Source: Diabrotica undecimpunctata (Eukaryota > Arthropoda > Insecta > Coleoptera > Chrysomelidae). From it: a stretch of 64,000 nt of DNA. Below, in pieces: positions 4,472 to 64,000 of the stretch. The DNA lies in contig NC_092806.1 of NCBI RefSeq assembly GCF_040954645.1, positions 108,584,731-108,648,730 of the forward strand, read 5' to 3'. Under the pieces are notes generated by a model. It was not told the origin of the DNA. It worked only from the letters and a program-made list of their open reading frames with translations, and made no database searches. How positions within the stretch are numbered: the first letter of the stretch is position 1; the number at the start of each line of letters is the position of its first letter. A program made the translations under genes and the position numbers.

Positions 4472-6667
4472 TTAACCTGTCTTTATGGTCTGCAACCAGT
4501 TATGCATACAAGAATATGTAGAAAATAATATTTGTTTTATTTTTGATGTTTTTTCAGTAAATAACAATAAATGTTGTACGATGCACGATGTACAAAATTT
4601 TTTGAAACACATTTCCAAGAAAACACGTTTTGCATGGTTTTTTTCTTTTGCCAAAATACAGGAATCCTCAAAATTAAACTTATGTTTCCGAGTTATTGCA
4701 TGTTCTGCGAGTGTACATACATTTATTTTGTTGGTTTTTATGTCACTACGATGTGAGATCACCCTACTGTGGAAATTACGAGATGATTCTCCGATCTGAA
4801 CGTTGTAGCAATTGGCACACGGTATAGAATAAACAACATTCGATGCCTCCTGTAGTGTGAAACGATCTTTTGTCTTTGTGAATAACTTCGATACCGTTTT
4901 CACATTCTTAGTTGTAACTTTCAAGCCATTAACATTTTTGAAAATGTTCATTAGCTTAGGTGTCAGAACTGGAATGTAGGGTAAGGAATCAAAAGTTATT
5001 TTAGATGGTATTATTGAAGTGTTGTATGTCAATGTCAATTGTCGGACCTCATTGTTATGAAGATTTTGGTTGTTGGAAAATTGCGAAGAAAAAGGAGCAC
5101 CGAAAATGAGTTTATTTAAAAGCCCTAAGGGGTAGGAGTTCTCTAGTAGTATAGATCTCAACTCATTTAGTCCCTTGTCCCTAAAATCGATGTGTGACAA
5201 GTTAGTAAGCCTAGTTTTTAAGGCCAAAACTAAATTTGTTTTCATCTTGGATGATTGTTGAGAATCAAAATTTATGAAACGGTTACTAAAACCAGGTTTG
5301 CGATACCACTCTGTTCTTAGCATGCCATGGCTGCCACAATGGATAAGCATGTCTAAAAAAGGAAACATAACATCTGCCTCGCTCTCAACCGTAAACTTTA
5401 AGTGTTCACATTGGAAGTTAAATGTGTTTAAAATATCAGTTACTTTGTTTTCAGGGGCCGATAAAACCAAACCGTCTAAATATCGTTTAATAAAAGGTAT
5501 GTGAAAAGGTATATTTTCTTTACAAGTTGTTATAAGTTCATCCAAAACAAAGTTACATAGTATTGGGGATATTTTACTGCCCACTGGAGTGCCAAATATT
5601 TGTTTATAAAAATTACCATTGAACAAAAAGATCTTAGAGTTAAATATAAATGTTAAAATTCTTATGGAATCATCTAAACTGATCTTGGTATGCGGAGACA
5701 TGCTGTTCCAATTATTTTTGATGCTGTTCAGAGTAGCATCTAGTTGTAAGTTTGTAAACAGTGACACAACGTTTAAACTAATCAATATATAATTATTCGG
5801 AACTTTAACATTGTTAATGAAGTTACTAAACGTGAAAGAATCTCTAATATAGAATTCATTGGATTCGTTGTAGGAAATTGTGAGAATATCTGTAAGGTGT
5901 TTAGCAAGTTTACTATTAGGAGCATCAATTGAAGAGACAATGGTTCTCATAGAAATAGTGGGTTTGTGAACTTTAGGCAGTCTATAAAATCTGGGTGTAA
6001 CTGCATTGTAAATTTTCATGGATTTTGCAACCTCTGTTGTTATGGATTTGGAAGAAGCTAAATCCGAAACCAGCTTGTTTGCCTTTTGTTGGAGGGTGCA
6101 CACCGGACTGTTCTTAAGTTTGGTGTAACTTTTTTTCTCAATCAGTAAACTATTACTTTTTTCAATGTAATCATTTTTATACATTGCCACTGTTACATTT
6201 CCCTTGTCACTCATAACAATGTAAATTTCTGGATGTGATTTTAAAAATTGTTTGCACTCATTGTATATTGTGTTCAAAAAATGTCCTTCTTTACTTGTTT
6301 TAAGTAGAAAGTTAGTGATAACATTAGTGCTTTGAGATCTCACAATATCCTTCTCTTGGGGTTCCAGACCAGAAATACAGAACTCGATATCTGAGAGAAG
6401 AGAAGACATTTTGAAATCTTTAGCACTAGAAAATAGGCAAAATTTTGGACCCAAAGACAAAAGTTTTTTGACATTGTAAGGAAAAGTGACGTCAGCTAAA
6501 TTTTTGAACCATCTATCTTGGAATGTTATTTTTGAAAATTGATCTACTTTTATTTTGTTGAATTTTTTGATGTTATTTTTAATTTGAAAAAATAATTTAC
6601 TATATTTATTTTTTTGTCTTATATCGAATTCGTGTAGTAAAGGAGCAGATAAATGCTGCTCTAACAT
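4472..6667 (-). CDS. Penelope-like element RT plus GIY-YIG endonuclease ORF (731 aa)
   Basis: The frame is open from an ATG at 6667 with the PLE domain order. The N-terminal region ends in LSLGPKFC. The RT core has YRLPKVHKP, SSIDAPNSKLAKHL, LNVVSLFTNLQLD and FGTPVGSKISPILCNFVLD. The C-terminal GIY-YIG-type module (about residues 612-690) has VYSIPCANC and GESSRNFHSR. Two key sites look damaged: the catalytic YxDD reads YLDG (about residue 396), and the YIG of the nuclease reads QIG. The ORF is long but probably encodes an inactive enzyme. Its natural N-terminus lies upstream (6769-6950 and beyond 7317), separated by stops and an RTE insertion. Confidence 0.85.
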   Translation of the reverse strand: MLEQHLSAPLLHEFDIRQKNKYSKLFFQIKNNIKKFNKIKVDQFSKITFQDRWFKNLADVTFPYNVKKLLSLGPKFCLFSSAKDFKMSSLLSDIEFCISGLEPQEKDIVRSQSTNVITNFLLKTSKEGHFLNTIYNECKQFLKSHPEIYIVMSDKGNVTVAMYKNDYIEKSNSLLIEKKSYTKLKNSPVCTLQQKANKLVSDLASSKSITTEVAKSMKIYNAVTPRFYRLPKVHKPTISMRTIVSSIDAPNSKLAKHLTDILTISYNESNEFYIRDSFTFSNFINNVKVPNNYILISLNVVSLFTNLQLDATLNSIKNNWNSMSPHTKISLDDSIRILTFIFNSKIFLFNGNFYKQIFGTPVGSKISPILCNFVLDELITTCKENIPFHIPFIKRYLDGLVLSAPENKVTDILNTFNFQCEHLKFTVESEADVMFPFLDMLIHCGSHGMLRTEWYRKPGFSNRFINFDSQQSSKMKTNLVLALKTRLTNLSHIDFRDKGLNELRSILLENSYPLGLLNKLIFGAPFSSQFSNNQNLHNNEVRQLTLTYNTSIIPSKITFDSLPYIPVLTPKLMNIFKNVNGLKVTTKNVKTVSKLFTKTKDRFTLQEASNVVYSIPCANCYNVQIGESSRNFHSRVISHRSDIKTNKINVCTLAEHAITRKHKFNFEDSCILAKEKNHAKRVFLEMCFKKFCTSCIVQHLLLFTEKTSKIKQILFSTYSCMHNWLQTIKTG

Positions 6668-7316: not shown

Positions 7317-7387
7317 AAATCTACGATAGCAGAACCATATCCTCTTCGGAAGAAATACAGGATATTAGTGACTGTCGTTATAAACAA

Positions 7388-7575
7388 AACTACCAGTTTA
7401 TTAGGGCTGCAGTCAGAAGGTTGGCCGAGATGTTAGAGAAACACTCTTTTGACTTTTTGTCGAGCTTTCGGAATGGTTTTATTCCTTTTTCAAGACACTG
7501 TATTTATTTCATGACATATTTTGATAGTATGTTTTATCTCTGATACATAGAGAACAGAAAGAAAAACAATTTTTT
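7388..7575 (-). repeat. PLE terminal repeat (PLTR), right copy
   Basis: Direct repeat of 4028-4142 and 4316-4375 with an internal deletion. It lies on the 5' side of the minus-strand PLE ORF, as expected for the partial upstream copy in a tandem PLE arrangement. It carries the decayed hammerhead at 7458-7497. Confidence 0.75.
7458..7497 (-). ncRNA. decayed hammerhead-like motif in right PLTR
   Basis: Same architecture as 4096-4136. Stem I GACA/UGUC and stem II GGAAU/AUUCC pair cleanly, GAAAG follows, but the core reads UUGAAAA instead of CUGANGA. Confidence 0.45.
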
Positions 7576-7585
7576 TTAACTTATA

Positions 7586-9894
7586 CAAGGTGGTCCAGAA
7601 TTATGTACATTAATTTCTAGAGCTCATAGTACGTCCAAAAATAAGGGTACTTCTTTATGTACACTTTTTTATAAAACTGAATAATAAAGAAGATACAACC
7701 CTTTAAAGGGGTGAATTGAAATTCTTATTTTTTCAAATATCTTCTAAACGGTTTTGAATACGGAGTTCATATTTTGGGAGTGATTATAAGACATTAGGAT
7801 AATTAATTGCATGTCACCACCTACCACATCCTATATTAATACAGGCTAGTTTTGGAGGGTAAGTGGGGGTTATTGCGTCACATGTTTTTTTAATTTTTAC
7901 ATATTTTAGAAAAAATATTTTAAAAATTATTTCCTTAGACTTTTCTACGCAAAAAACGTGCTCTTGTAATATTTCGATAGATATCACCGTTTTCGATTTA
8001 TTTAAACTCGAAGGTATACATGTATTTTATTGTAATCGTTACATTTCTTAATATTCATCAAGTATGCTTTGGAATTGACACTTGTGTTAGCAACAACACT
8101 TTAATCTCAAGTAGTCTATGAATTGTCAGTGACGTTTAATAACAATTAAATTATTTTATTTACACTTTTATTGTACTCGACAGTGAAATTTGTTTAACAC
8201 GTCTCTTTTGCTATATTTTTAAATTTGTTTGCCCGCAATATGCCACACTATTCAAATTCTGAGATGACAGACATACTTTTAGTATTAGGGGAATGTTCGG
8301 GAAATGCTGCTGCCGCTGTAAGACGCTACAGAGAAAAGTATCTGAACAGAAATATTCCTAATGCCAGGACTTTTGTAAGTACTGAACGACGACTGAGAGA
8401 AACCGGTTGTCTTCAAAGAATGAATACAGATGCTGGTCGTCGTAGAGAAGCAAGAAATGTTCGCGTTGGACAGCAAATATTGGATGCTGTAATAAATGAC
8501 CCCACAATAAGTACACGCAGGTTAGGATTAAGAACGAATATTTCCCATCAAAGTGTTTTAAGAGTTCTGCATGAAGAGCAATTACATTCTTACCACTATC
8601 GACAGGTGCAGGAATTGTTACCTGACGATATGCCACTTAGAGTTGATTTTTGTGAAGTATTGCAAAATAAAGTTCAAACTGCACCAAATTTTTTAAGCAA
8701 CATTCTGTTTACAGACGAGGCCACATTTACAAGACAAGGTATGTTCAATTCTAGAAATATGTACTTCTGGGCTGAAGAAAATCCAAGGGCTACAATGGAA
8801 ACTCACTTCCAACACACGTTCAAGATAAACGTTTGGGCAGCTACTTTAGGAAATAGTTTCATAGGATACCACATCTTTCCCGAAAATTTAAATGGTAACA
8901 TGTATTACAATTTGCTAGACAATATTTTACATGATATTTTGGAAGATATTCCATTACAAATACGAAGAAACATGTTTTTCATGCATGATGGTGCTACACC
9001 ACATTACACAAGAATTTTTAGAAGGTGGTTACATGAACATTTCCCTGATAGGTGGATAGGCCGGGGTGCGGATGCACCGATTCATTGGCCTGCTCGTAGT
9101 TGTGATCTTAATCCAATGGACTTTACAGTATGGAGTTATTTGAAATCAAAAGTGTATAACACTCCAATTAATACAGTAAATGAGTTAAGAAACAAAATTG
9201 AACAAGTATTTACCGATTTACAAAACGATCCAGTAACATTAAATGGATTAATGCGTTCGCTAAATAAAAGAATTAGATTATGTATTCAACAAAATGGAGG
9301 ACATTTTGAAGAGTTGTTGTGAAATATTATTTTCGCCATTAATTAAATGTTAAGTATTAATTAAGTTTTCCATTAATTTGTAATATTATTGCTAACACAA
9401 GTGTCAATTCTAAAGCATACTTGATGAATATTAAGAAATGTAACGGTTACAATAAAATACATGTATACCTTCGAGTTTAAATAAATCGAAAACGGTGATA
9501 TCTATCGAAATATTACAAGAGCAACTTTTTTGCGTAGAAAAGTCTAAGGAAACAATTTTTAAAATATTTTTTTAAAATATGTAAAAATTAAAAAACATAT
9601 GACGCAATAACCCCCACTTACCCTCCAAAACTAGCCTGTATTAATATAGGATGTGGTAGGTGGTGACATGAAATTAATTATCCTAATGTCTCATAATCAC
9701 TCCCAAAATATGAACTCCGTATTCAAAACCGTTTGGAAGATATTTGAAAAAATAAGAATTTCAATTCACCCCTTTAAAGGGTTGTATCTCCCTTATTATT
9801 CAGTTTTATAAAAAAGTGTACATAAAGAAGTACCCTTATTTTTGGACGTAATATGAGTTTTAGAAATTAATGTACATAATTCTGGACCACCTTG
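7586..9894 (+). mobile_element. intact mariner-like transposon with ~507-bp TIRs
   Basis: The ends read CAAGGTGGTCCAG...CTGGACCACCTTG, flanked by the target dinucleotide TA (7584-7585 and 9895-9896). The left arm (7586-8093) and right arm (9389-9894) are near-perfect inverted repeats about 507 bp long, far longer than the roughly 30-bp TIRs of classical mariners. One uninterrupted transposase gene lies between them. Arm similarity and the open frame suggest recent transposition. Confidence 0.92.
8240..9322 (+). CDS. Tc1/mariner-superfamily transposase, 360 aa
   Basis: Cut-and-paste DDE/D transposase. I start at the first ATG (8240, MPHYSNSEMTDILLV) because the open frame upstream has only TTG. 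Residues 1-60 form the HTH region with GECSGNAAAAVRRYREKY, like the helix-turn-helix (DUF4817-type) domain of many insect transposases. The second HTH lies near TRRLGLRTNISHQSVLRVL. The catalytic Asp candidates are LFTDEATF (D159), FMHDGATPHY (D250) and WPARSCDLNPMDF (D294), 43 residues between the last two by my count. It ends in GGHFEELL. All expected parts are present without frameshift, so it may be functional. Confidence 0.92.
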   Translation: MPHYSNSEMTDILLVLGECSGNAAAAVRRYREKYLNRNIPNARTFVSTERRLRETGCLQRMNTDAGRRREARNVRVGQQILDAVINDPTISTRRLGLRTNISHQSVLRVLHEEQLHSYHYRQVQELLPDDMPLRVDFCEVLQNKVQTAPNFLSNILFTDEATFTRQGMFNSRNMYFWAEENPRATMETHFQHTFKINVWAATLGNSFIGYHIFPENLNGNMYYNLLDNILHDILEDIPLQIRRNMFFMHDGATPHYTRIFRRWLHEHFPDRWIGRGADAPIHWPARSCDLNPMDFTVWSYLKSKVYNTPINTVNELRNKIEQVFTDLQNDPVTLNGLMRSLNKRIRLCIQQNGGHFEELL

Positions 9895-11958
9895 TATAAG
9901 CTTTGTCCATAAAATTGTACAATTTTCAGTGACAATAAAGCATATTTCTATTTAATTATATTCTACTGTAAATTCAATTTAATTAAATTTTTCTCTTGCA
10001 TAACTTGTAGTTTGGAACCAAATTATAGTAGCATTTTTTTAATGGCATAGACTAGGTGTCAATGAGCCAGTTACCAGTTACAACGTGACTAATACCTCAA
10101 ACATAAAAATGTAACGACCGTAAAGTCCATAAAATATCAATAACGAAGAGTTGAATAATATGATTTAAGTACTTAAATTAAGGAAATAGTATTAAAGCTA
10201 ACAAAATACATAGTATATATTTTTTTATCTGTTTTAGTATTTTTTTTAAGTTGAAGATACAGTGATATAAAAGTAAAGGTTATCTGTCAAACTTTTTTTA
10301 TTTTTTAAGGGGTTTTTTGAGTTTGTGGGCGGTACCATGGTAGAACCACTAACACTACAAATATTAATAATCAGGTATTAAATAACAAGTAACAATCAAG
10401 TATATAATTGCATATTTATTTTTTATGAAATTTAAAAAAAAACAATCATTTATTCTCTTAAACAAAACCTCACGTTACATACAGTGGAATGCCATCTAGT
10501 TCTACGGATTTGATTTCTTTTATTACATCATGCATATATAACCTTATTCCCATTTACTCACATATATGGTCTGTTTGCTGGTGCACATTTCAGTGAGAAC
10601 TTAAAACTAATTTACCTTAGGTTGTGATTTTCTATCCTACTAAAAAGAAATCCTATGGGTCCAGAAGACACTGCAAGTCAAAATTCTTTCAGAGAGTTAG
10701 TGAAAGCATCTAAAGAAATTTTCAAGTATAGTTCGCACTTTATACAGTTTATCATATCTGTTTTCGTCGATAAGATAAGGAAGGGAATTAATACGACCAA
10801 CTTGGTGTTCCGGCCAGCCCAGCGCTTACTGATACTTTACGGAAAATTTTTTAAAATGGTGGTTCCTCTATGGAACCGCTGGCCCAAAAAGGGCTAAACC
10901 ATATTGATCTTATGTAAGAATATTTTTTATATTATGAAAGCAGTATAATTATTTCAAAATACTTTTCTTTCTAGTCTTTTGCTTATATTTCAAAGATTAA
11001 TAGGTTAATAGGAAAGATAACACTTTCTTTAGCGCAAATATTAAGCAAGACATTTTACTTGTAAAAATGGTATTTTTAGTTTGATTAAAAAACACGTATA
11101 CCTGATTTGGAAACCTATTTATATAATAAATTATTATTAATATCAGTTTACACACCTACAAATTTAATGTAAGGGTATCAACACTGTTCTCTACATTGTC
11201 ATCGAAGTTACTATAATTTTATATTAAGTAATATAATTTACTTTAATATGAATATGTATGTAACTAATGTTGTAACATCTGATGAATATAATTGCATAAA
11301 TTATTAATAAATTAATATAATTTGTAATTTTAAGCGGAATCGTGCCTTTGAATTTGCTATATCTGAACATTTACTTTAGATATAATGGAGAAATAATTAT
11401 TTGGCTTGTGTATATAACATTGAAATCATTTTTTTAATCCTATTATTCGGTATTACTGAAATTGACCTTACTTGTAAATCACTTATCTTAAACGGTATAT
11501 TATAAATTATTACGAAATTACTATTGACATATATACCACCTATTTTATGCTTATCAGTGAAGTAACATTGCGTTAATTCATAATTTGTATATTTTTAAGT
11601 TCTTCGCGGTACCTACTCTATATCTAGGAATAAAAATCAATATGTAATATATAAATTGATTATAAAATCTCTTGTAAATTATCTGCAATATTTTCAATTA
11701 AAATTATATATTTTTGACTTTCTACTTTTAATGTAAAACTAGTTTTCAAATTGACAGAAGTTCATGCCAGTAATTGGTATTATCGTAAGCTACTAGTCGA
11801 AATGTATTTTACTTGATATAAATACCTTTATACAGGTATACCTTTATTATTCCAGTTGTTCTGAGAACAACTGAAATTAATGATGATGAAGAATTATCTC
11901 ACGATCTTATTTTCTCATGTTATAATTATTTTAAAACTATATTGAAGATATACTAAAC
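9895..11958. other. unassigned AT-rich sequence
   Basis: No feature I can support. A phrase near 9897 (TAAGCTTTGTCCATA) recurs near 44634, suggesting a shared low-copy repeat. The open frame at 10655-10897 matches nothing I recognise and looks like chance. Confidence 0.5.
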
Positions 11959-20758: not shown

Positions 20759-22012
20759 ATGGATAATTCTGAAAATATTAGTATACCTACTACATCATCA
20801 ACATCGACATACTCCAATGCAGTAAGCAACTTCAATTTTCCTTCAAAAGAACAAGCCATTATTCTGTCAGCTATCCAAGGTATTAAAATACATGAATACA
20901 TAGTAGCCATAGGGTCTCTACTCACACCAAAAAATGTTATCTTTGCATCACGAATAGCTAACAACAGAGTTTGTATTTACTTGAACAATACTAGCATAGT
21001 AGATACCTTACTAAACAACCATAAAACAGTACTCATCCAAGGCAATGAGATAGAAATTCGAAGACTTATTACGCCAGCAAGGAGACTAGTAATATCAAAC
21101 ATCTGCCCCAGCATTCCGAACAGTATTTTAGAAGAAGAACTGAAACAACTAGAAATAACTGCAGTATCCAAATTAACGTTTTTAAAAGTTGGCATGCCCG
21201 AGTCTGAGTATAGTCATGTCTTAAGCTTTAGGCGGCAAATATTTGTCTCTCCGATAATCACCAAACCAATTCCAAATACAATCTTAATAACCTATGACAA
21301 CACTCCTTACAGAATCTTCCTATCCCTAGATGGTTTAAATTGCTCTAGATGTAATACTACTGGCCACAAAGAAGAAAACTGCACATCAACATCAACTGGT
21401 ACAGAAACACTTAAAGATCCTTATACCTCAGAACTCGAACTCATGGAAATAAATCAGAATAATTCAGCAACAAATATTTCAGATGATACAACCAACTGTT
21501 TCAACCCTATTTCTGCAGATATCCCAACGACAAATGATTCGCTTATAGTACACAGCATACCTTCAACTAAAGCTAACAGCAATAATAGTAAAACAACCAA
21601 TCAAGCAAAAAGGCAAATTTCAACCTCTCCTGAAATCTCAGAAACTAAAAACCTAAACGAAACTTTCATAACTCCAAAAAAATCCGCACACAAAAAAAAG
21701 AAAAAGGCTTTAGATGTCGAAGCCACATTAAAACCAATTGAAAACATTTTAATGACAGCATCTCCTTCATATACGCTAAATTTCTCTGAATTATGCGACT
21801 TCGTGATAAACGCAATAGGATCAAAATTTCCTGAAGTCACAGCTAAAAACTATACAGAAGATTTTGACGGCTTATACACCTTATTAAAAATGGTTCACTC
21901 AAAATTAAATGATAGACGCATGAAAAATAATATCACAAGAATTATAAAGAAAATAAATCCAACAAATGAATCTTCCCTCACTGAAGAAAGCGACTACGAT
22001 TTATCTCAATAG
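20759..22012 (+). CDS. LINE ORF1, gag-like nucleic-acid-binding protein (417 aa)
   Basis: First protein of the full-length LINE, expected to bind element RNA and form ribonucleoprotein particles. A CCHC-type knuckle CSRCNTTGHKEENC lies near residue 194, preceded by a stretch ending RIFLSLDGLN. The C-terminal half is rich in Ser, Thr, Asn and Lys (TPKKSAHKKKKKAL) and ends with an acidic tail. Only one knuckle is obvious, where two or three are common. Its stop lies 47 bases inside ORF2, which suggests coupled or reinitiated translation. Confidence 0.85.
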   Translation: MDNSENISIPTTSSTSTYSNAVSNFNFPSKEQAIILSAIQGIKIHEYIVAIGSLLTPKNVIFASRIANNRVCIYLNNTSIVDTLLNNHKTVLIQGNEIEIRRLITPARRLVISNICPSIPNSILEEELKQLEITAVSKLTFLKVGMPESEYSHVLSFRRQIFVSPIITKPIPNTILITYDNTPYRIFLSLDGLNCSRCNTTGHKEENCTSTSTGTETLKDPYTSELELMEINQNNSATNISDDTTNCFNPISADIPTTNDSLIVHSIPSTKANSNNSKTTNQAKRQISTSPEISETKNLNETFITPKKSAHKKKKKALDVEATLKPIENILMTASPSYTLNFSELCDFVINAIGSKFPEVTAKNYTEDFDGLYTLLKMVHSKLNDRRMKNNITRIIKKINPTNESSLTEESDYDLSQ

Positions 22013-25000
22013 TCCAATTATATTCATTCTTCAATGGAACTTGAATGGCTATTATAGCCACATTGAAAACATTAAAATGCTAATCAATGAACTGTCACCA
22101 CTAATAATATGTCTTCAAGAAACTCGTCTTTCCAACAATCAAGCAAAACTAAAAAATTATATGCCCTATACAAAAAATCGAGCAGTACAGCAAATATCCA
22201 GTGGTGGAGTCGGAATTTTTGTACATTCAACCATCCAATCCCAAGAAATTCCGTTAAATACAAATCTGGAAGCAGTAGCAGTTTCGGTAATACATCATTT
22301 TAAAATCAACATATGCAACGTATATTTACCACATCCTGACGAAACTACTCTATTAGAACTTCAAAATGTAATTAAACAAATTCCATCTCCAAAATTAATT
22401 TTGGGTGACACAAACTGTCACAACATCGCATGGGGATCACAAAGAACAGATAAAAATGGACGAATATTATTAGAAGCAATTAATAACATAAAACTAGTTT
22501 TATTAAACACAGGAGCACCTACTAGATTCAATGTACATAATGGCACTTTTTCCTCCATAGACTTATCTATCAGTGATTCAACTTTAGCTCCATTTTTACA
22601 GTGGAATACATTGGACCACCTATACGACAGTGATCATTTTCCGATAATAATTACTCATGACAAAGATGAAAAAACCTGTACAACACCATATGAAACTTGG
22701 AAATTAAAGTCAGCCGATTGGGAAAAATACTCGAACTTAGTAAGCATACGTATACCAAATCTCGTTATATCAGATAATATAGACACTACTCTATCATCTT
22801 TCAATGGTATAATTTTAGACGCAGCCAGAGATTCTATAGGAAAAACCAAAAATATCACAAAAGCTCCTCTTCCTTGGTGGAACACTGAAATCGCATCCGC
22901 TTTAAAGCAAACAAAACATGCTTTTAATATATACAAAAAGTTTAACACACCTAATAACTTAAACAATTTTAGATCTTTAAGGGCCAGATCTAGATTTTTA
23001 ATAAAACAAGCAAAAAAAGAGAGCTGGACCAATTACGTGTCGTCAATTGACTCGTCTACGCCCATAAGGGATATATGGCAAAAAATAAGGAAAATAAAAG
23101 GTTCAAAAACATTTAACCATATTGACACAATCACTACAAATGATCTAACAACTTCAGACAAACACGAAATCTCAGAAATTTTAGTAGAACACTATCAGTT
23201 GTATTCAAGCAATCAGCAGTACCACCCAAATTTCTTAGAACACAAAGAAAAAACAGAAGCATCAAAAATTAATATAGAAGATACTGCTGATCCACTAAAC
23301 ACTTCCATAACACTTGATGAATTAAATGAAAGTCTTAATAACCTCAAAAATATCTCACCTGGACCTGATGACATACCACCAATTTTCATAGAAAAACTAC
23401 CTATAAGCGCGAAGGTTACTTTAGTAGAGATCTACAACAAAATTTATTCGACCCATAAATTTCCATCTCTCTGGCGCGAAGCAATTATAATACCATTTTT
23501 AAAAGACAATAAACCAAAAAACTTATCTTCTTCGTATCGACCAATATCTCTTACCTGTAGCATCTGTAAAATAATGGAAAAAATTCTAAGCAAAAGATTA
23601 AAATGGTACTTAGAAAAGAAAAATCTCCTTACATCCATCCAAAGTGGGTATCGATCAGAACGGTCTACAATAGATAACATTATAGCATTAGAATCTGAAA
23701 TACACGAAGCTTTTATACATAAACAAAAATTAATAGCAATTTTCTTTGACATCACAAAAGCATTTGACACCACGTGGACATATCACATCTTAAAAACAAT
23801 GAAGAGTTGGAAAATAGATGGTAAATTCCTAGCCTTCGCCAAAAACTTCCTGGAGAACAGAAGTATAAAAGTTAAAACAAACGGTGTCATGTCAACTAAG
23901 AAATCACTGGAAAATGGTATCCCTCAAGGATCTGTATTAAGCCCCCTGCTATTCTTAATAGCAATCAACAACGTATCTAACCATTTTATGCTTCCAGTAA
24001 AAGCAAACCTTTACGCCGATGATCTTGTAATATATATGAGAAGTAAAAACCTAAAATCAGCTGCATCAATATTACAAAATACACTAAATAAATTAGAAGG
24101 GTGGTCTTTAGATATAGGCTTGAGATTTTCAACCGAAAAAACTAAAGTAATAATATTTGACAAAAGAAAAACACAACACCACTTAAATTTAAAACTTAAC
24201 GGAAATACTCTTATAACAATCAACGAAATCAAATTTTTGGGAATGACATTCGACTCTCAACTAAAATGGACATCGCACATAAATGAACTAATTAAATCAT
24301 GCCAACAGAGAATAAATCTTCTAAAAGTTCTTTCCAATCACAAATGGGGCGCAGACACAACTATTCTTCTGCGATTATATCAAGCTCTAATTAGAAGCAA
24401 ACTAGATTATGGATGTATATGCTACGAAACTGCTACTAAAACTCAAATGAACAAACTGGACATCATCCAATCCACAGCATTACGCATAGTTTTCGGAGCT
24501 TTTAGAACCACGCCAATTAGCAGCCTTCAAGTCCTAGCAGGAGAACCGCCATTAACTCTCAGAAGACAATATTTTTCAATGTGTTGTGCTACTAAATATC
24601 TTAGTGCAAAGGAAAACCCGTTTATAACAAGCCTAATAAGGAGCAACCCTCCAAATCTGTACTCAAATTATTGCCCTAGAAACTTACCTTTCAATGAACG
24701 AATAAATCGATTTGAATTCGATATACATCAATTGAGAGCCACTTCTACAAACAGATGCCAGTCTCCTCCCTGGAAAGTTCAAATACCAAAAGTAGATTTT
24801 ACCTTACTTAACTATCCCAAACATTCACACAATCCTTCTGAAATACAACAACAATTCCGGTCTACCATCTCCAGATACCCTGATTTCAAACTAATTTTTA
24901 CTGATGCCTCTAAAAGCAGTAATGGTGTAGCTGCTGCAGCTATTTTTGAAGACAACACCTCTGTCACCCGTCTAGCCAAGGAGTGTAGCATATATACTGG

Positions 25001-25685
25001 AGAACTACAGGCAATCTTCAACGCACTGAACCAATGTACCAGCATTGATACAAACTTTCTTATTATATCAGATTCTCTAAGTGCCTTAAATGGTGTCAAG
25101 CAGATGTATCCTACTCATGCCAATTTAGCATTAATAAAAGACATGCTATACAATGCCCAAACATGTGGTAAAAACATAACATTTTTATGGGTACCATCCC
25201 ATGTTGGGATAAAGGGTAATGAATCAGCTGATAAAGCAGCAACAGAAACTATCAATAACATGACAATTCCTATTATGCAAAACATACCAATTTCAGACCA
25301 AAAAACATTAATAAAAACTTACATGAACAAAATCTGGCAAGTAAAATGGAACCAAACAGAAGCAAAATTAAAAAGTATCAAACCAGATGTTACTTCTGCT
25401 TTACTACCGCTCCCAGCTAAAAGACATGACCAAGTAGTTATTAACAGACTGCGACTAGGTCATACAAAATTTACACATGGATACATCATCTCCAAGGACC
25501 CTCAGCCGATTTGCCACATCTGTCAAATACCATTTTCAGTGCAACATATAATGATAGACTGTCCAGTGTACTCAACAGCAAGATCGACAGCAAAACTAAA
25601 ACACAATTTGAAAGAAACTCTAAAAGAAGACATCAGCAATACAATAAATTTTATCAAAAATTGTAAACTATATAACAAACTGTAA
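21966..25685 (+). CDS. LINE ORF2: APE endonuclease, reverse transcriptase, RNase H (1239 aa)
   Basis: Target-primed reverse transcription enzyme. Endonuclease (about residues 20-225): LQWNLNGY, LQETRLSN, LGDTNCHNIAWGS, DSDHFPII. RT (about 480-760): SPGPDDIPP, SYRPISLTCSICKIMEKIL, FFDITKAFDTTW, GIPQGSVLSPLLF and LYADDLVIY with both Asp residues near 683. RNase H (about 975-1105): FTDASKSSNG, GELQAIFNAL, ISDSLSALNG, WVPSHVGIKGNESADKAA, so the D-E-D-D set is present. A C-terminal knuckle, CHICQ...HIMIDC, lies near 1182. No stop or frameshift. Confidence 0.93.
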   Translation: MNLPSLKKATTIYLNSPIIFILQWNLNGYYSHIENIKMLINELSPLIICLQETRLSNNQAKLKNYMPYTKNRAVQQISSGGVGIFVHSTIQSQEIPLNTNLEAVAVSVIHHFKINICNVYLPHPDETTLLELQNVIKQIPSPKLILGDTNCHNIAWGSQRTDKNGRILLEAINNIKLVLLNTGAPTRFNVHNGTFSSIDLSISDSTLAPFLQWNTLDHLYDSDHFPIIITHDKDEKTCTTPYETWKLKSADWEKYSNLVSIRIPNLVISDNIDTTLSSFNGIILDAARDSIGKTKNITKAPLPWWNTEIASALKQTKHAFNIYKKFNTPNNLNNFRSLRARSRFLIKQAKKESWTNYVSSIDSSTPIRDIWQKIRKIKGSKTFNHIDTITTNDLTTSDKHEISEILVEHYQLYSSNQQYHPNFLEHKEKTEASKINIEDTADPLNTSITLDELNESLNNLKNISPGPDDIPPIFIEKLPISAKVTLVEIYNKIYSTHKFPSLWREAIIIPFLKDNKPKNLSSSYRPISLTCSICKIMEKILSKRLKWYLEKKNLLTSIQSGYRSERSTIDNIIALESEIHEAFIHKQKLIAIFFDITKAFDTTWTYHILKTMKSWKIDGKFLAFAKNFLENRSIKVKTNGVMSTKKSLENGIPQGSVLSPLLFLIAINNVSNHFMLPVKANLYADDLVIYMRSKNLKSAASILQNTLNKLEGWSLDIGLRFSTEKTKVIIFDKRKTQHHLNLKLNGNTLITINEIKFLGMTFDSQLKWTSHINELIKSCQQRINLLKVLSNHKWGADTTILLRLYQALIRSKLDYGCICYETATKTQMNKLDIIQSTALRIVFGAFRTTPISSLQVLAGEPPLTLRRQYFSMCCATKYLSAKENPFITSLIRSNPPNLYSNYCPRNLPFNERINRFEFDIHQLRATSTNRCQSPPWKVQIPKVDFTLLNYPKHSHNPSEIQQQFRSTISRYPDFKLIFTDASKSSNGVAAAAIFEDNTSVTRLAKECSIYTGELQAIFNALNQCTSIDTNFLIISDSLSALNGVKQMYPTHANLALIKDMLYNAQTCGKNITFLWVPSHVGIKGNESADKAATETINNMTIPIMQNIPISDQKTLIKTYMNKIWQVKWNQTEAKLKSIKPDVTSALLPLPAKRHDQVVINRLRLGHTKFTHGYIISKDPQPICHICQIPFSVQHIMIDCPVYSTARSTAKLKHNLKETLKEDISNTINFIKNCKLYNKL

Positions 25686-45480: not shown

Positions 45481-46050
45481 TATCGGTCTGGAACTAAAAC
45501 AACTCTGTTTTTTAGTCACTTAATATTTCGCCAATTGATTATTGGTTTCATCAGAAGTGCTCTACAAATTTATTAAAACAAAGTGATAAGCAACATTACG
45601 ATAAAATTACATAAATATGTACTTACAGAGGTAGAACTGTTCACAAAAAAAGAGACATGATTAACATTAGTTTGACACTTTGCCAATTAGACTGACAATT
45701 TTTAAAATAAGTTAATATACACATAAAACAACAAAAAGTGTATAGTGGATTAGACGATTTTTCTGTAATTTTTATATATAACAAACAAGGTAACAGGTAT
45801 ACCGTTAATTAATATTGATTTAAATAAATTGCAGAATATTGCTGTAGATGCTGCTTAGCTGATTCGTATATGTTTTGTAATTTATTACATTTTGTGTTTT
45901 AGTAATATAACACATTTCCAGAAAGCCTGTTTTTATAATTAGTTGATGTTTGTAGGATTTTAATATTCGTATAGTCAAATTTGTGACCTGTATTGGTGGA
46001 GTGTTCGACATATTTATATTTTTTCAGTTTTAATTCCAGACCGATAGAAA
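45481..46050 (-). pseudogene. PLE 3' end relic with hammerhead
   Basis: The minus strand reads YVEHSTNTGHKFDYTNIKILQ and NYKNRLSGN (end of the GIY-YIG module), in two frames and truncated upstream. Downstream lies hammerhead motif C. CTATCGGTCTGGAA occurs at both edges in opposite orientation (about 45481 and 46028), framing the fragment with short inverted repeats. The 3' part aligns by eye with the PLE end at 47641-47730. Confidence 0.65.
45517..45559 (-). ncRNA. hammerhead-ribozyme-like motif C
   Basis: Minus strand: stem I CACUU/AAGUG (5 bp), core CUGAUGA (45548-45554), stem II ACCAAU/AUUGGC region, GAAA (45526-45529), a 1-bp stem III with UA loop and U as cleavage base. Core bases are intact; stem II carries an extra A next to the core. 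Confidence 0.6.
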
Positions 46051-47640: not shown

Positions 47641-49510
47641 ATTTATAGTATCAGCAATCGGTCAGGAAATAAAACTCTATTTGTTCAGTCTCAATATTTC
47701 GTCACGATTTTGTGACTTCTTCAGGAGAAAACTGTAAATTTATTAGAATAATTAATTATTATATGTAAACAAAGTGAATATTTTAATACTTACAACTATA
47801 AAAATAAAAATTTCAATTTTTTTAGCATATCTAAATAAATGACATATTTGTTTGATTTTATTTAACCGCATGGTTAAAGTTATGGTAACCGCAATATTTT
47901 ATAGAGTGAAATCCCATTGTACAATTTTTAGTGAGTAGGTTAAAATAAACAATTACTATGACAGTATTATCCATATTATAAAGTGGAAAGATGGAATTAA
48001 TAGTACAGAATTGAAAAAGAATCAGGAACACGATAAATTGATCTATAAATTGTAATTGATGGTATGTAGTCAGTTATTGCAATACTGATATTTAGGAATG
48101 TAATAAAATTATAGGTACAGTTACTGGAGAATTACTAAGTTTGTGTTTAAATGTTAAGATCTATCATATTATATATTGTTTAGTATGTTGCAGTAGATAT
48201 TACTTAAATGATTGGTGTCTGTCTTATAATTGATAGATTCAGGAGTGTTATTAATGTGTACCATTTCAAGGAAAAGCCGATTTTTATAATTATCAACTTG
48301 TTCCAAGATTTTTACATTATTAAAGTCAAAGTTATGTCCTGTCTTTAAGTGGTGGTCCACTAAGGCACAAGAGTTTTTTCGTATGTTACAGTCACTTTTG
48401 TGTTGAGTGACACGTTGTTTAAGCCACTGTTGACTTTGACCAATATAATAACTTTGACATTGACTGCAATTTATTCTATAAATTATATTACTCATTAATG
48501 AATTTGGAGTTTTAACTTTTATTTTTAAAAATAACCTTGAATTTAGAAGTGGATTGTATTTAATTAATTTAATGTTCGGAAATGTTTTGAAAAGTGAAAC
48601 AATTTGGTCTGTTAAATTTTTTATGAAAGGTATTTTTTTATATGAAACTGGTTGTGGATTATTTATTAAAGCTCTATTGTAAAAGTTAGTGTTATAAATA
48701 AGTTTTTTTAATATATGTTTTGGGTAGCCATTGTTTAAAAACATTTCAAAAAGTTTCTTTAAATTGACATCTAGGAAACTCCGATCACAGATTGTCGTTA
48801 CAAGATTTTTCATAGATACAATTGTGTTGAATTTTTGATTTCTAGAATGATTAGAATAATAATTTATAAATCTGCCGGATGCAGTATCTTTTTGATACCA
48901 ATCTGATTTTGTTATCATTAGTTCTTATGACTTTGGTATCTATAAAAGGTATATTATTTTTATTTTCATATTCGACAGTGAATTGAATATTTTAATGGAG
49001 TGAATTAAAGATCGTTTGTACTGTCTGAATATGGTTGAATGGTACACTGCATATTATATCATCAACAAATTTATAAATAAATGCTAGTGAAAACGGCAAT
49101 TTTGAAATTCCAAAGTCTAATAAATGGTCTAGGATAATTGTTGCTAAAATAGGACTAATAGGACTGCTGCTTGGTGTTCCAAATATTTGTTTATAGAATT
49201 TATCACAAAAACAAAAATATGTGTGGTCAAATAAGAATGTTAATAATGACAGGAAGTCTTTTCTAGATAATGATGTGAATTGTTCTATTTTAGACCATTT
49301 TTCTTGTATGATTTCAATGATTAACTTTATTGGGATGTTAGTAAACAATGACAATACATCTAATGATATCAAAACATAGTTATCTGGTAGCTGAATTCCA
49401 TTTACAGCATTGACAAAAGAAAATGTATCTTTTGTATTGAAACTTGGCTCATTTTCAAATGTCTGTGTAAGTATATTTCCCAAGAATTTGGATAGTCTAT
49501 GAATTTATTA
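47640..49510 (-). pseudogene. Penelope-like element, 5' truncated, one frameshift
   Basis: Minus-strand ORFs 48992-49483 and 48169-48918 form one PLE protein broken near 48918-48992. RT: LISLDVLSLFTNIPI, FGTPSSSPISPILATIILD and FVDDIICSVPF with an intact catalytic DD pair. Linker: WYQKDTASGRFINYYSNHS. Nuclease: IYRINCSQCQSYYIGQSQQW, HKSDCNIRK, DHHLKTGHNFDF. The 3' UTR includes hammerhead motif D. Apart from one frameshift and the missing N-terminus it is well preserved. Confidence 0.85.
47689..47728 (-). ncRNA. hammerhead-ribozyme-like motif D
   Basis: Minus strand: stem I UCUC/GAGA, core CUGAAGA (47718-47724), stem II GUCAC/GUGAC with a six-base loop and one unpaired A, GAAA (47697-47700), minimal stem III (AUAU) and U as cleavage base. 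Located 3' of the PLE ORF on the same strand. Core intact. Confidence 0.6.
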
Positions 49511-53189: not shown

Positions 53190-53605
53190 GTTAGTATACA
53201 AATATATAAACAAAGTAATGGCCCGTACTAATAGAAAATAAATTAATAGTATTCATAAAAAATCTTATAAGTAAGGTAATTGTACTATTCTTGAGAATAC
53301 TCAAATATCTTCATCCTAAATATCTTAAAATTTCTTATTAACTACTGCAACATGATTATTTTTATTTCTACACAGTATTTCCATTATGATATTCGGCAGA
53401 TATTCAATTTTGTTATTTTAATAATAACTTTTTTTTGTTAATGGAATTAAATTTTTACTTTATTATTTCTTTTACTTTATACCGTATATTTATTTTACCC
53501 TTTAAAATATTATTTACATTATTATCTCTTTCAGATACAACTTGTTATTTCACTGTATTAATTTATTTTTATGTATAATATGTCATGTTTTTAGTGTTTA
53601 TAATA

Positions 53606-54294
53606 GAGGCCCATTAGGCCGAAATACTTATAAGCGCATGCGCAGGCGCCCTGTACGTGAAATCAAATCTTAACTGTCTTTTCCTTTTTATTCCGATATA
53701 CTCTGTACGAGTACTAGACACCAATTCGCTAAGAATTTTGCTTAGTTGAGGAGATATGTTGTGGAATGCAATTTTTAGATTCCCCATGTCTCTAATAACA
53801 TCTTTATCAACGTTTGTTTTGCATTGCAATTCTTAGAAGGCACAGATTAAAGCGAAATTCTGAATTTGGTTTCGAAAATTAGTTTACGGATTTTATTATC
53901 AGATGTCGCTCTTTGCGTCTATACGAAGCTATGTTAGAGTTGCTTCCTAAGACAGAAAAGATTTATTTTCACATTCAGAGCGACTGCGAAAGCCGTTCTG
54001 ATGAGGCCTATTAGGCCGAAATACGTATAAGCGGATGCGCAGGCGCCCTGTACGTGAAATCAAATCTTAACGGTATTTTCCTTTTTATTCCGATATACTC
54101 TGTACGAGTACTAGAAACCAATTCGCTAAGAATTTTGCTTAGTTGAGGAGATATGTTGTGTAATGCAATTTCTAGATTCCCTATGTCGCTAATAACATCT
54201 TTATCAACGTCTGTTTTACTTTGCAATTCTTAGAAGGCACAGATTAAAGCGAAATTCTGAATTTGGTTTCGAAAATTAGTTTACGGATTTTAAT
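53606..54294 (+). mobile_element. tandem 397-bp hammerhead repeat (retrozyme-like)
   Basis: Two head-to-tail units with a period of exactly 397 bp (53606 aligns with 54003; 53871 with 54268), no indels and about a dozen substitutions over about 280 bp. Unit 2 stops at 54294. A hammerhead motif sits across the unit junction (53993-54034), and a partial one lacking the first core half starts the array. Cleavage at 53632 and 54029 would release a 397-nt monomer. This is the arrangement described for animal retrozymes. Minus-strand 71-codon frames here are by-products of the repeat. Confidence 0.75.
53993..54034 (+). ncRNA. type I hammerhead ribozyme at repeat junction
   Basis: Stem I CCGUU (53993-53997) pairs with AGCGG (54030-54034), with one G-U. 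Core CUGAUGA is at 53998-54004. Stem II GGCC/GGCC (54005-54008/54014-54017) follows without bulge and closes with the expected G-C. GAAA is at 54018-54021. Stem III AU/AU (or AUA/UAU with CG loop) leads to A54029 as cleavage base. Every core position matches the hammerhead consensus. Confidence 0.8.
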
Positions 54295-55410
54295 ATTATT
54301 TGTATGTCTCTGGTGTCGATGTTCTTACCCTCCAGGATTTCTTTGAGTTTATTGTGGCGTACTTTGTCAAAAGCCTTTTCAAAGTCTATAAAGCAGGTGT
54401 GTACCTCTTGGTTAACATCTAGACATCTCTGTGTTAGGACGTTTAAAGCAAAGAGAGCTCCTCTTGTACCTAATCCTTTTCTGAATCCCATCTGTGTATC
54501 GGTAATATCGATATCTAACTTTTGATAGATTCGGTTGTGGATGACTCTAAGAAATATTTTAACCAGATGGCTTATCAAGGAGATTGTTCGATGATCTAAA
54601 AATTGCATTGCCTTAGTTTTCTTTGGTATGGTGACAAACGTAGACAGCGCCCATTCTTGAGGTATTATACCAGTACTGCATATTGTATTGAATAGATGTA
54701 ATATGATGGTTACGGATTTATCATTCAAAAGCTTCAACAGTTCTGTGAGAATTTCATCAGGTCCATTTGTTTTTCCATTTTTAGCGTTTCCTATTGCGTA
54801 TTCTACTTCTTCTTTCAATATGTCTGGCCCAGTTGCATTGATTATCTGAGTTAAGTTGTTTTTATCGTCTTCAAATAAATCATTCAGGTATTCTGTCTAT
54901 CTTTTTATTTTATTCCCTAGCTCTACAATAAGATTTCCATCTTTGTCTTTAAGTTTATCTATTTGGCATTTCTTTATGCTTCCTGTTATCTTTTTACTTT
55001 TTTTGTGCATATTGAACGCATCGTACTTTTTCTGATAGGTTTCCATTTCTTCACACTGTCCTGTAATCCACGCCTGTTTGGCTTCTTTTATTCTCTTTTT
55101 TATGTGTTTGTTTATTTCTTTGTATTTGTTTAGGCAATTCTTTATCTTTCTTCTTTGTTCCATCAAGTCTAGTATATCTTATGTCATCCACCCCTTATTC
55201 TTTGTTGTTGTTTTTGTAAGATGCTTCTTTCCTGCTGCTTGTATAGCTGTATTTATGTACTTTAATTTTTGGTTAACGTTATTTGTGTCGTTAATTTGTT
55301 GCTGTACTGAACGGAGGTTTTCATTTATTTCTTCTCCTGTTTCTTGTCGTATATTTTTGTTTCTAAGTTGAATCTAGTGCCTTTCTGTGTGGTCTTCTAA
55401 TCTTTTTTGG
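54295..55410 (-). pseudogene. RTE-type LINE fragment, linker and first half of RT
   Basis: Minus strand: EINENLRSVQQQINDTNNVN, LMEQRRKIKNCLNKYKEINK (54897-55166, EN-RT linker), EYLNDLFEDDKNNLTQII, then 54276-54818: VEYAIGNAKNGKTNGPDEIL, FVTIPKKTKAMQFLDHRTIS, MGFRKGLGTRGALFALNVLT and FIDFEKAFDKVRHNKL. Same family as 315-1918. It ends abruptly before the YADD motif at the edge of the retrozyme repeat. Loss of the 3' half is unusual for a LINE and points to a later break. Confidence 0.8.
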
Positions 55411-61200: not shown

Positions 61201-61337
61201 CTAAAAAGTATTTAACCACTTAATTAAGAAGAACATGAAATAATTTAAGTTTTGACTAAGGTTAATGTAAAATGTGGTTAATACTTACAGGTTAATACAT
61301 GGAAATAGCCACTAAATATGGGGGTAAAAACCCTTTA

Positions 61338-62201
61338 AAAATTACTAAATGAAATTTAGTTTACATTATGTGTAGTTTAAAATTAAGATGGTAAAGTTAC
61401 CGTTGGATTGGTAACATGGCGACATATGACTCTACATTAAGTTGCAAGTCCTGAGACGGTATGTCTACGAGGACTTTATTAAAGCAACTGATTGAAATGA
61501 CAATCTTGACAGGTTATGACGGAAGTTGTGACAGAGCAGTCAGTGTAACTGTATATGTCTATTTCAGACAGAAGCCAATGTTGTTTAAAAGTTGTGAAAG
61601 TTGAAATAAAAATAAAATTATAACAGTATCAACCATCAATGTTATTGTTTTAAATTATGTATGTGAGATGAAATTGTGGTGAGAAAATTATGTGATTATA
61701 GTTAGGCAACCAACTATACAGTGTCAAGTGGTGTGATGAAAAGATTCTAATATAAGGCCTTTATGTTTTAATAACATTTGGTACCTGGAAAATGGAAACT
61801 AGATACAGGTGGAAAGTTGGGTACTTGAAAAAGTATAGGAATTAATATATTTAATATGTGAGAATGTTATTCAATGAATAAAATAAAACTATTGTAATAT
61901 AAAGTTCATGTAAAAATTGACTTATAACTCAAATATATTAGGCCCTGTATGTCAAAAAACAACATTTGGTACCTGGTAAATGTAAAACTTCTTGAGTTGT
62001 AACTTCATGAATACAAATATCTGATTGGGTGTTAACAAACTGAGTGATGTAGTTATATTTTGTGTGTTGACAAGTATATGAAATAGACAAAATTTGATGG
62101 TTGGAAGTGGTTTTGTAATATATTGATCGTAAAGTATTTAATTTATAACTTGAGAAAAGGCCCTATCTGTTATAAAGCAACACTAGGTACATAGGAAAAA
62201 T
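61338..62201. repeat. left arm of a long inverted repeat (at least 860 bp)
   Basis: It matches 63140-64000 in inverse orientation with high similarity from AATTACT...TTTAGTTTACATT at the outer end to CTAGGTACATAGG at the inner end. Three imperfect internal units end in TTTGGTACCTGG or its variant (about 61780, 61970, 62190). It flanks a PLE 3' fragment and may be a PLE terminal repeat in inverted arrangement. Confidence 0.85.
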
Positions 62202-62676
62202 AAAAGATTAAGTTATAAGTTGGTAAGTTGAATGAACTATTGGTCTATATTGACTATAATAGTAAAATGAAATTGTTGTAGGTGGCTCTGTTAAATTTGA
62301 GTAAAGAGAATGAAAATCAAGGTGTTTTTGAGAAAATTGTGATAAATGGATAGACTACAGAAGGCTGAGATCCCCAGAGAACCGAAGCCAAACCCTGAGG
62401 GAGTTGTGTAGAGAAGTAAAATAAGAATTTAATAATCTGGAAGGGGGGGGATGACGGATGATCTGATCTGAATTTGGAAGTGTCGAAATAGAAGCATGGG
62501 AAGTATTGGTTATAGTGGTTAATACATGAAGTTTGGGTTGAAAAGAAAAGAGTGGGATAGATGGAGAGTAAGATGTATTGGAAGAAAGGTTTTTAGAGTG
62601 AACTAAGGTAGATGAGTATTAGGTGAACTAATAATAAATATAGATTTTAATTGTAGAAATAAATTGGGGATGTGAG
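62202..62676. other. spacer, 3' untranslated side of PLE relic
   Basis: Non-coding sequence between the left arm and the end of the PLE coding relic on the minus strand. Confidence 0.5.
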
Positions 62677-63139
62677 TTAGGAGAATAGTTGACGATGGAG
62701 AGGGAGAAAATCTCGATTGAATGAAACATGACGATTGACGCAATTTGTGCTTTTTTGTTTTTCTTTAAGAATTCCAAGATCTTCGTATAAATCTAATTTG
62801 AGGAAATTTTTTTGGGAGATATTGTGGATAAGTGAAACGTCTTCTGGGATATTGAGGGTGTGGTTGTGTTCTTTGAGATGTTGAGAGAAAGTGGAAGTAT
62901 TTTCTCTTTTTATGTGCTCTAGAGAGCGTGAAGAAAGAGATCTGCATGTTCTACCTATGTAGGTGGCATTGCAATCTGAACATTTAAGTCTATATACTCC
63001 ACTCCGGTTCATATAATTGATAGGATCTTTGGAATTAGAAATATGTTGTCCCAAATTGTTGGGTACTTTGAAAGAAACATGGGTGTTTTCAACCGAATGT
63101 TGGATGAGATTTCGAATATCTCCAGAATGCTTTTTTTGC
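62677..63139 (-). pseudogene. PLE GIY-YIG nuclease end
   Basis: The minus-strand frame is open from the inner edge of the right arm: DIRNLIQHSVENTHVSFKVP, then the module SGVYRLKCSDCNATYIGRTC, SSRSLEHIKRE, TFSQHLKEHNHTL and NFLKLDLYEDLGILK, ending QLFS. Nuclease core residues look intact, but the whole RT is missing because the copy begins at the repeat arm. Confidence 0.85.
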
Positions 63140-64000
63140 CTATGTACCTAGTGTTGCTTTATAACAGATACGGCCTTTTCTCAAGTTATAAGTTAAATAC
63201 TTTACGATCAATATATTACAAAACCACTTCCAACCATCAAATTTTGTCCATTTCATATACTTGTCAACACACAAAATATAACTACATCACTCAGTTTGTT
63301 AACACCCAATCAGATATTTATATTCATGAAGTTACAACTCTAGAAGTATTACATTTACCAGGTACCAAATGTTCTTTTTTGACATACAGGGCCTAATATA
63401 ATTGAGTTATAAGTCAATTTTTACATGAACTTTATATTACAATAGTTTTATTTCATTCATTGAATAACATTCTCACATATTAAATATATTAATTCCTATA
63501 CTTTTTTAAGAACCCAACTTTCCACCTGTGTCTAGTTTCCATTTTCCAGGTACCAAATGTTATTAAAACATTTGGTGCCTTATATTAGAATCTTTTCATC
63601 ACACCACTTGACACTGTATAGTTGGTTGCCTAACTATAATCACATAATTTTCTCACCACAATTTCATCTCACATACATAATTTAAAACAATAACATTGAT
63701 GGTTGATACTGTTATAATTTTATTTTTATTTCAACTTTCACAATTTTTAAACAACGTTGGCTTCTGTCTTAAATAGACATATACAGTTACACTGACTGCT
63801 CTGTCACAACTTCCGTCATAACCTGTCAAGATTGTCATTTCAATCAGTTGCTTTAATAAAGTCCTCGTAGACATACCGTCTCAAGACTTGCAACTTAATG
63901 TAGAGTCATATGTCGCCATGTTACCAATCCAACGGTAACTTTACCATCTTAATTTTAAACTAGACATAATGTAAACTAAATTTCATTAAGTAATTTTTAA
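63140..64000. repeat. right arm of the long inverted repeat (runs off window)
   Basis: Inverse copy of 61338-62201. Similarity persists to the last base of the window, so the arm probably continues beyond it. The plus-strand open frame at 63043-63396 is an accident of this repeat. Confidence 0.85.

Follow-up and report, generated by a model that had tools for sequence, protein, structure and literature searches.

A hammerhead retrozyme family of Diabrotica undecimpunctata with two fixed insertion ends and a conjectured Penelope-type mode of insertion

Within a 64,000-nucleotide stretch of the Diabrotica undecimpunctata genome (hereafter, the window) lies an old, worn, 5'-truncated animal non-LTR retrozyme of 1.73 units. 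Judged by its sequence, the family to which it belongs is a new family of animal non-LTR retrozymes, and its copies end at non-random positions: the 3' ends of the RNA from which they derive fall mainly at two sites of the 397-nt unit, and inserts with an end at each side of this kind carry one of each. The explanation that we consider best, and highly probable, is that these are retrozymes, probably copied from a circular template, that are inserted from two sites in the manner of Penelope-like elements (PLEs). That PLEs are what mobilizes them is our conjecture.

The window copy consists of two head-to-tail parts. Across 291 positions, 54003–54293 differs from 53606–53896 by 14 mismatches, without insertions or deletions, at an offset of exactly 397 bp, as a preliminary description of this DNA had reported. 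Tandem Repeats Finder does not list this tandem, probably because it contains fewer than two copies. By self-comparison, the first unit (u1–u397) occupies 53606–54002 of the plus strand, and the 5' half of its ribozyme is missing; the second (u1–u290, 54003–54292, plus strand) stops at a 3' end common to many loci, termed site A. The direct repeats at this locus are the retrozyme unit itself, and no tRNA-like gene was found near the copy. The unit has a GC content of 37.8%. Its longest stop-free circular frames are 43 aa (plus strand) and 72 aa (minus strand); the two window copies disagree at 10 of the latter's 72 residues, and a search of protein collections with it found no candidate with three shared 5-residue words.

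A complete type I hammerhead spans the junction of the two units at 53984–54042 (plus strand), where the preliminary description had folded one by hand. The assignment is based on the motif, the local fold, and covariation in 54 genome copies, with the motif read against the hammerhead consensus. Stem I has an outer part of 5 bp (CUGCG/CGCAG) and an inner part of 5 bp that includes one G-U pair (CCGUU/AGCGG); the core comprises CUGAUGA, stem II (GGCC/GGCC), and GAAA; stem III has 2 bp and the loop ACGU; and an A precedes the predicted cleavage site, 54029/54030. The local minimum-energy fold has the same stems I and II as the motif. The stem III region (AUACGUAU) is palindromic, and by analogy two hammerhead copies could pair through it; motifs from axolotl likewise have a 2-bp stem III with a palindromic tetraloop, and pairing between copies has been described for these weak stems (PMC7229834).

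A strict hammerhead descriptor identifies 53984–54042 as the only site in the window and finds matches in 2 of 2000 dinucleotide-shuffled windows (1 of 300 in an earlier run); a chance origin of the motif was dismissed on these counts. The preliminary description had also stated that a failing covariance-model score would count against the motif, and the Rfam hammerhead models do reject it. There was no match at gathering score in the whole window and none at E ≤ 5 with a 1.1-kb query, whereas the sole hammerhead match of a 101-base query was to RF00008, at 15.3 bits versus a gathering score of 48.5, with RF00163 not listed for that query. We consider this rejection to be outweighed by the genome-wide evidence given below.

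The two equivalent cleavage sites first proposed for the window copy reduce to one, as there is only one complete ribozyme. The left unit begins at GAGGCC (53606) and is devoid of CTGAT and of the 5' stem I strand, so the upstream ribozyme half is absent at its equivalent of the cleavage region (53628–53637, plus strand; the cut would be 53632/53633); in addition, position 53637 in the 3' strand of stem I is C, compared with G in unit 2. With one complete ribozyme and a broken left unit, the window locus therefore cannot release the circularizable 397-nt monomer that had been suggested for it.

Related copies are found throughout the genome. The window copy matches at least 88 places, in about 40 loci by our own grouping (40 of 2893 candidates scored; 1.74-Gb genome), and the exact ribozyme core pattern occurs 713 times in the genome, compared with 0 for a reversed-pattern control. 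The loci are dispersed over many contigs and range in content from a partial unit to several units; one arm of L027 contains about four. The search for genome-wide multimers that the preliminary description had proposed was successful, with multi-unit loci present. No exact-pattern relatives were found in viral contigs and prokaryote genomes.

We examined 62 ribozymes from 27 loci, of which 51 have an intact hammerhead core. In an alignment of 54 of them (42 distinct sequences; seven with indels and one diverged sequence were dropped), two stem I pairs show a C-G to U-A replacement affecting both partners, one in 9 and the other in 11 distinct sequences. There are 20 double-change cells, compared with 6.8 ± 2.0 in shuffled alignments (0 of 500 shuffles as high), the covariation score is 0.115 compared with 0.082 (0 of 500 shuffles), and 94.5% of stem cells are paired, compared with at most 51.5% when the partner strand is slid. 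The other two of the five measures were not above the shuffles, namely how many pairs have a double change (2 versus 2.7; 486 of 500 shuffles as high) and how many further pair types there are (15 versus 16.4; 494 of 500 as high). A minimum of two compensatory events, centered on two stem I pairs, can be read from the alignment, and each of these changes may be a single inherited event. The subfamilies differ at core position 7 (CUGAUGA or CUGAAGA), which we take to be the one free position of the hammerhead core. Because the core recurs 713 times with none in the control, is kept in most ribozymes examined, and is accompanied by compensatory stem I pairs, we conclude on sequence grounds that the family is one of retrozymes. 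The retrozyme-like reading of the preliminary description is borne out by a dispersed, multicopy, non-coding, multimeric unit with compensatory change in a type I stem I; the tandem length (within 150–450 bp), the range from dimers to multimers, and the low GC content are all those of retrozyme units. The new information comes from features outside that description, namely the termini, the target duplications, and the head-to-head arrangement of inserts.

The ends of the copies were mapped at 60 loci, 40 of them (27 + 13) selected for their score against the window copy and the other 20 taken as the first in order along one contig (C1); the latter were drawn from exact core matches, so all 20 carry the ribozyme core. 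Ends were classed in a uniform automatic count with a 120-bp merge. The outer boundaries are non-random, with RNA 3' ends mainly at site A (u290) and at a second site, B (u85), which, from the DNA ends, lies 58 nt past the cleavage site; the 5' ends vary. By this mapping, site A (ending in TTTACGGATTTTA) is the cDNA start site of the window copy, at 54292, and site B (ending in TCTTTTCCTTTTTA), the second cDNA start site of the family, is at 53690 in unit 1 and at 54087 in its unit 2 equivalent (plus strand). Many inserts are two cDNAs of one RNA strand joined head-to-head, so that both outer ends are 3' ends. Twenty-seven of the 60 loci have one A and one B end, 4 have A and 3 have B paired with another end, and the 5'-truncated loci comprise 11 with A, 14 with B, and 1 with another end. 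No locus has two A ends, and none has two B ends. A 500-bp merge gave 28 A+B loci and a single B+B locus (L039), which joins a diverged neighboring copy. The 20 C1 loci comprise 10 A+B loci, 3 with one irregular end, and 7 single-headed ones; over all 60 loci, an irregular 3' end was present in 8. One A+B locus (L038) is a segmental copy of another (L037), leaving 26 independent A+B loci. By independent, equal choice of ends, 26 mixed pairs out of 26 would arise about once in 7 × 10^7, an arithmetic figure that treats the loci as independent.

Two of these loci have further features. The only single-headed locus of the 60 with a 3' end that is neither A nor B (L028:660–2278) is a retrozyme array with atypical ends (u260 and u385); a Penelope endonuclease fragment lies 385 bp upstream of it. 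At L039:2800–3061, beside a younger copy, there is a diverged (∼64%) relative with its own hammerhead-like sequence, which suggests an older retrozyme family.

None of the 24 listed single-headed 5' ends is at the cleavage position (u28), and units run past the cleavage site within one cDNA; therefore, a cut linear monomer was not the usual template. The template may have been a circle or an uncut multimer, two possibilities that the 5' ends do not separate.

Target-site duplications were found at 18 of the 27 A+B loci (score of at least 11), with lengths of 13 (9 loci), 12 (5), 14 (3), and 11 bp (1) that may include one or two bases common to the end of the element; the other 9 have no duplication with this score. 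In the first set of loci, 13 of 26 scored at least 11, compared with 6 of 650 controls, and a 12–13-bp duplication was present at 10 of the 20 C1 loci, compared with 0 of 380 mismatched flank pairs. Automatic duplication calls at L049 and L066 were spurious (element-internal and (TA)n, respectively), and neither is an A+B locus. The targets are mixed AT-rich sites.

At the window copy, no duplication directly flanks the element, and a candidate is found only with up to 130 nt allowed on the left. Its left copy (ATATTATTTACAT, 13 bp, 53507–53519) is identical to the right copy (ATATTATTTGTAT, 54293–54305) at 11 of 13 positions, or at 12 of 14 when the shared A is included; 14-mers as similar as this are present at 8 of 63,987 plus-strand window positions, both duplication copies included. 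Between the left duplication and the retrozyme are 86 nt of filler (53520–53605) that are foreign to the unit, a search for similarity to the 397-bp unit having found none; for comparison, the two heads of L050 are separated by 456 unmatched nt. The length of the candidate duplication fits the 12–13 bp of the family, the match is imperfect, and the left copy is 86 nt away from the element. The window copy reads as a single-headed insertion with filler, an assignment less certain than those of the other loci. A LINE reverse-transcriptase fragment (54276–54896, minus strand) breaks off at the candidate target duplication and does not resume upstream; this lack of resumption and its position on the other strand oppose an origin of the abutting LINE by template jump.

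The sites A and B face each other in the predicted fold of the RNA. Folded as a circle, a consensus of 40 complete units from 28 loci is predicted to be a rod, one end of which is formed by the ribozyme; its energy is −117.7 kcal/mol (z −6.3), a value that 0 of 200 shuffles reached. The circle of the window composite had a z of −3.1 (1 of 300 shuffles as low), 16 other window stretches had a z of −1.0 or higher, and the paired fraction of the window composite was not above the shuffles. By prediction, then, the unit forms the self-paired circle typical of retrozymes. In the predicted rod, A and B are on opposite strands of one junction. On the ribozyme side, this junction is closed by a firm helix of u69–75 with u344–350 (pair probabilities of 0.69 to 1.0 in the consensus circle), the strands of which lie at 53674–53680 and 53949–53955 in the window (plus strand), where they are also an inverted match; on the far side is a weak 4-bp helix of u87–90 with u282–285 (∼0.27).

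The window also contains Penelope-like elements. A Penelope-like reverse transcriptase (RT) frame is at 4472–6664 and an RT and GIY-YIG pair is at 48169–49483, both on the minus strand. The GIY-YIG match is above the Pfam cut-off; for the two RT matches, scores of 27.1 and 24.2 bits (E values of 4e-06 and 3e-05) fall short of the required 29.6 bits, and the frames align with each other at 31–39% identity. A hammerhead-like site (45513–45554, minus strand) is found ∼270 nt past endonuclease fragments of the 48169–49483 element, which is a natural candidate for the mobilizer; duplicated endonuclease-end fragments of this second Penelope element are at 45823–46009. The RT frame at 4472–6664 is flanked by a 112-bp direct repeat (4017–4128 and 7379–7490, 96% identical) that is probably the pseudo-LTR of the element with this frame, and the 3' end of this repeat faces the (TA)n that is common to the family described next.

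A second hammerhead family, represented at 3780–3943 of the window (plus strand; hammerhead-like sequence at 3843–3884), has short copies with fixed 3' ends in (TA)n targets. Local alignment of its ribozyme region with the one at 45513–45554 scores 58, compared with 37 for the best of 1000 shuffles. Fourteen head-to-head loci of this family were chosen for adjacent minus and plus pieces. At 11 of the 14 (perhaps 10 of 13, as L094 and L095 look like one duplicated locus), one end has a 31-nt or near-31-nt tail and the other is tail-less; the remaining 3 are irregular, and 0 of the 14 have two like ends. At one locus of this family (L056), a single uncontrolled case, the two ends are on the two strands of the base of a predicted 5-bp hairpin. 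We had at first read these sequences as a coding PLE and dropped that reading, as no PLE open reading frame is present in the copies examined; they look like a second PLE-related, non-autonomous family. Two observations count against the link of the retrozyme to PLEs: this absence of PLE coding sequence from the comparison family, and its location in (TA)n when the retrozyme is in mixed AT-rich sites. A direct sequence tie between the retrozyme ribozyme and the PLE ribozyme was rejected as weak, with 3 of 1000 shuffles reaching the score and the similarity being mostly the common core. Elsewhere in the genome (L085:991–1224), a Penelope RT fragment with 34.6% identity to the frame in the window lies directly against the B end of a retrozyme, which may have inserted into a PLE.

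Other elements are present in the window as well. A Tc1/mariner-like transposon at 7580–9900 has a 365-aa open reading frame (8225–9322) between inverted repeats that are 92–93% alike; among the best 120 of 563 relatives of this transposase, those with an organism in the name are from the beetles Anoplophora, Euwallacea, and Tribolium. A LINE at 20759–25685 has two long open reading frames, the second of which (1239 aa) has endonuclease, RT, and RNase H domains. Long inverted repeats, with arms of 441 and 424 nt (97% and 99%), occupy 61335–64000, up to the window edge.

What mobilizes animal retrozymes has been asked before. As far as the accessible parts of these sources go, the 2020 paper on animal retrozymes names PLEs as a strong candidate and leaves the question open (PMC7229834), and reviews state that PLEs or LINEs may do so (PMC7761336, PMC11722881, PMC8969392). 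The Penelope inserts of Adineta include an inverted pLTR and are flanked by 8–10-bp duplications, and one inverted pLTR may bear a tail of 31 bp (PMC3846280). With purified PLE protein from Anolis, both strands of the target are cut and extended, AT-rich DNA is preferred, and reverse transcription begins inside the RNA at two adjacent tail-defining sites downstream of the hammerhead (PMC11167929). As an observation against the proposed link, the start site in vitro is apparently alike on the top and bottom strands, so that the Anolis enzyme provides no example of a one-of-each rule (PMC11167929).

The argument for a Penelope-type mode of insertion is that the one-of-each ends of the retrozyme and of the PLE-related family match the published Penelope signature. 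In common with endonuclease-bearing PLEs, as described for Adineta Penelope and for Anolis PAc (PMC3846280; PMC11167929), the retrozyme has head-to-head inserts bounded by RNA 3' ends, two start sites (with a tail at one end in the PLEs), AT-rich targets, and target duplications. Like PAc, it has the hammerhead upstream of the start site (PMC11167929), so that, as deduced from the DNA ends, reverse transcription would begin internally and downstream of the ribozyme; Adineta Penelope, in turn, provides an example of a foreign sequence mobilized in trans (PMC3846280). Unlike PLEs, the retrozyme has no open reading frame, its start sites are ∼192–205 nt apart around the unit rather than separated by a ∼31-nt tail, and its duplications are 12–13 bp rather than the 8–10 bp of Adineta Penelope (PMC3846280). 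As a non-coding unit, it is not itself a PLE, and our claim is limited to PLE-like insertion.

In the model that we favor, multimeric retrozyme transcripts would cut themselves at the hammerhead, and the cut monomers would probably be ligated into 397-nt circles that fold as rods. A PLE RT/endonuclease, probably a dimer, would take up this RNA and cut AT-rich DNA with a 12–13-nt stagger. Site B, located 58 nt beyond the cut, would be the start of one cDNA, and site A, predicted to face B across the same junction, that of the second; each cDNA would follow the template, often beyond unit length. Joining of the two cDNAs would produce a head-to-head insert that has A at one end and B at the other and is flanked by a ∼13-bp duplication, and success of one side alone would give a single-headed copy with a variable 5' end, like that in the window. 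Self-cleavage, circularity of the RNA, the PLE as the enzyme, and the enzyme dimer are the steps that we infer, and we hypothesize that the dimer may be seated on the A/B junction and begin one cDNA per side.

A variant of this model, which does not exclude it, is that the same enzyme uses a linear multimeric transcript of tandem loci and that the ribozyme is dispensable for insertion. We rate it as possible, somewhat short of an even chance. Multi-unit source loci such as the L027 arm exist, and the Anolis PLE inserts uncleaved RNA in vitro, where ribozyme mutants leave insertion unchanged (PMC11167929). The retention of the core in 51 of 62 ribozymes, with compensatory changes, indicates however that the ribozyme matters to the family, and measurements of animal retrozyme RNA found circles in abundance (PMC7229834); the lack of 5' ends at u28 argues against a cut monomer and not against an uncut multimer.

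Mobilization by a LINE, through ordinary target-primed reverse transcription with the inverted pieces as products of twin priming, is in our view unlikely. Twin priming yields one fixed 3' end and a variable inversion, and a LINE-mobilized SINE has a single fixed 3' end; the retrozyme has two. LINE reverse transcriptases are frequent in the window, the window copy adjoins a LINE fragment, and LINEs or PLEs have been named as candidates (PMC7229834; PMC11722881), but both outer ends of the inserts are fixed start sites, one of each in 27 of 27 classed pairs, and the PLE-related family of this genome follows the same rule of one tailed and one tail-less end.

A foldback or MITE-like DNA transposon, with the inverted halves as its terminal repeats, would account for head-to-head halves and a near-constant duplication length, yet it is very improbable given that A and B differ in sequence, that 26 of the 60 loci have a single head and a 5' end that varies, that an arm may contain tandem units, and that a ribozyme, a feature of the RNA level, is conserved. 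An ordinary tandem duplication or satellite with a chance hammerhead-like string, although in keeping with the mere 1.73 units, the broken left ribozyme, and the Rfam rejection, is scarcely credible in the face of loci dispersed on many contigs, 713 cores with none in the control, target duplications, and compensatory changes.

Among described elements, the family is closest to the animal non-LTR retrozymes of Acropora, Mytilus, and axolotl (PMC7229834), with which it shares a type I hammerhead, a short low-GC tandem unit (here 397 nt and 38%), lack of coding capacity, a predicted self-paired circle, PLEs in the same genome, and duplications of more than 4 bp. It differs from them in having a sequence of its own and in that two start sites, head-to-head inserts, and the duplication length are resolved here; the accessible part of PMC7229834 mentions duplications when present and does not name start sites. 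The retrozyme literature as surveyed, which included few subscription journals, reports neither two fixed cDNA start sites nor head-to-head inserts. A type I hammerhead in a repeat of a few hundred base pairs is also present in Dolichopoda pDo500, with compensatory stem changes (PMC2837043), and in a newt satellite (cited in PMC7229834), and the Schistosoma W-elements are type I hammerhead repeats with a target duplication known for one of them (PMC8490949). These are described as satellites in the sources available, whereas the retrozyme copies examined are dispersed inserts that are short and have defined ends. The concept of a non-autonomous retroelement with a hammerhead and a circular RNA is shared by plant LTR retrozymes (PMC4918200); unlike this family, these have type III hammerheads, LTRs, a PBS, a PPT, and 4-bp duplications, and they are ascribed to Gypsy (PMC7761336).

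With 60 end-mapped loci out of hundreds in one genome, the question of which enzyme moves retrozymes becomes a testable claim, and a 397-nt RNA with two mapped start sites is a small model for PLE insertion. A broader proposal, for which we judge the balance to be even, is that animal retrozymes are parasites of PLEs: a folded circle would present two facing start sites to a PLE dimer, which would prime one cDNA at each from the cut strands, and the PLE tail would follow the same logic with sites 31 nt apart. If this is true, every complete retrozyme insert would have one A and one B end. The insertion signature of the retrozyme supports the conjecture that its movement is driven by PLEs.
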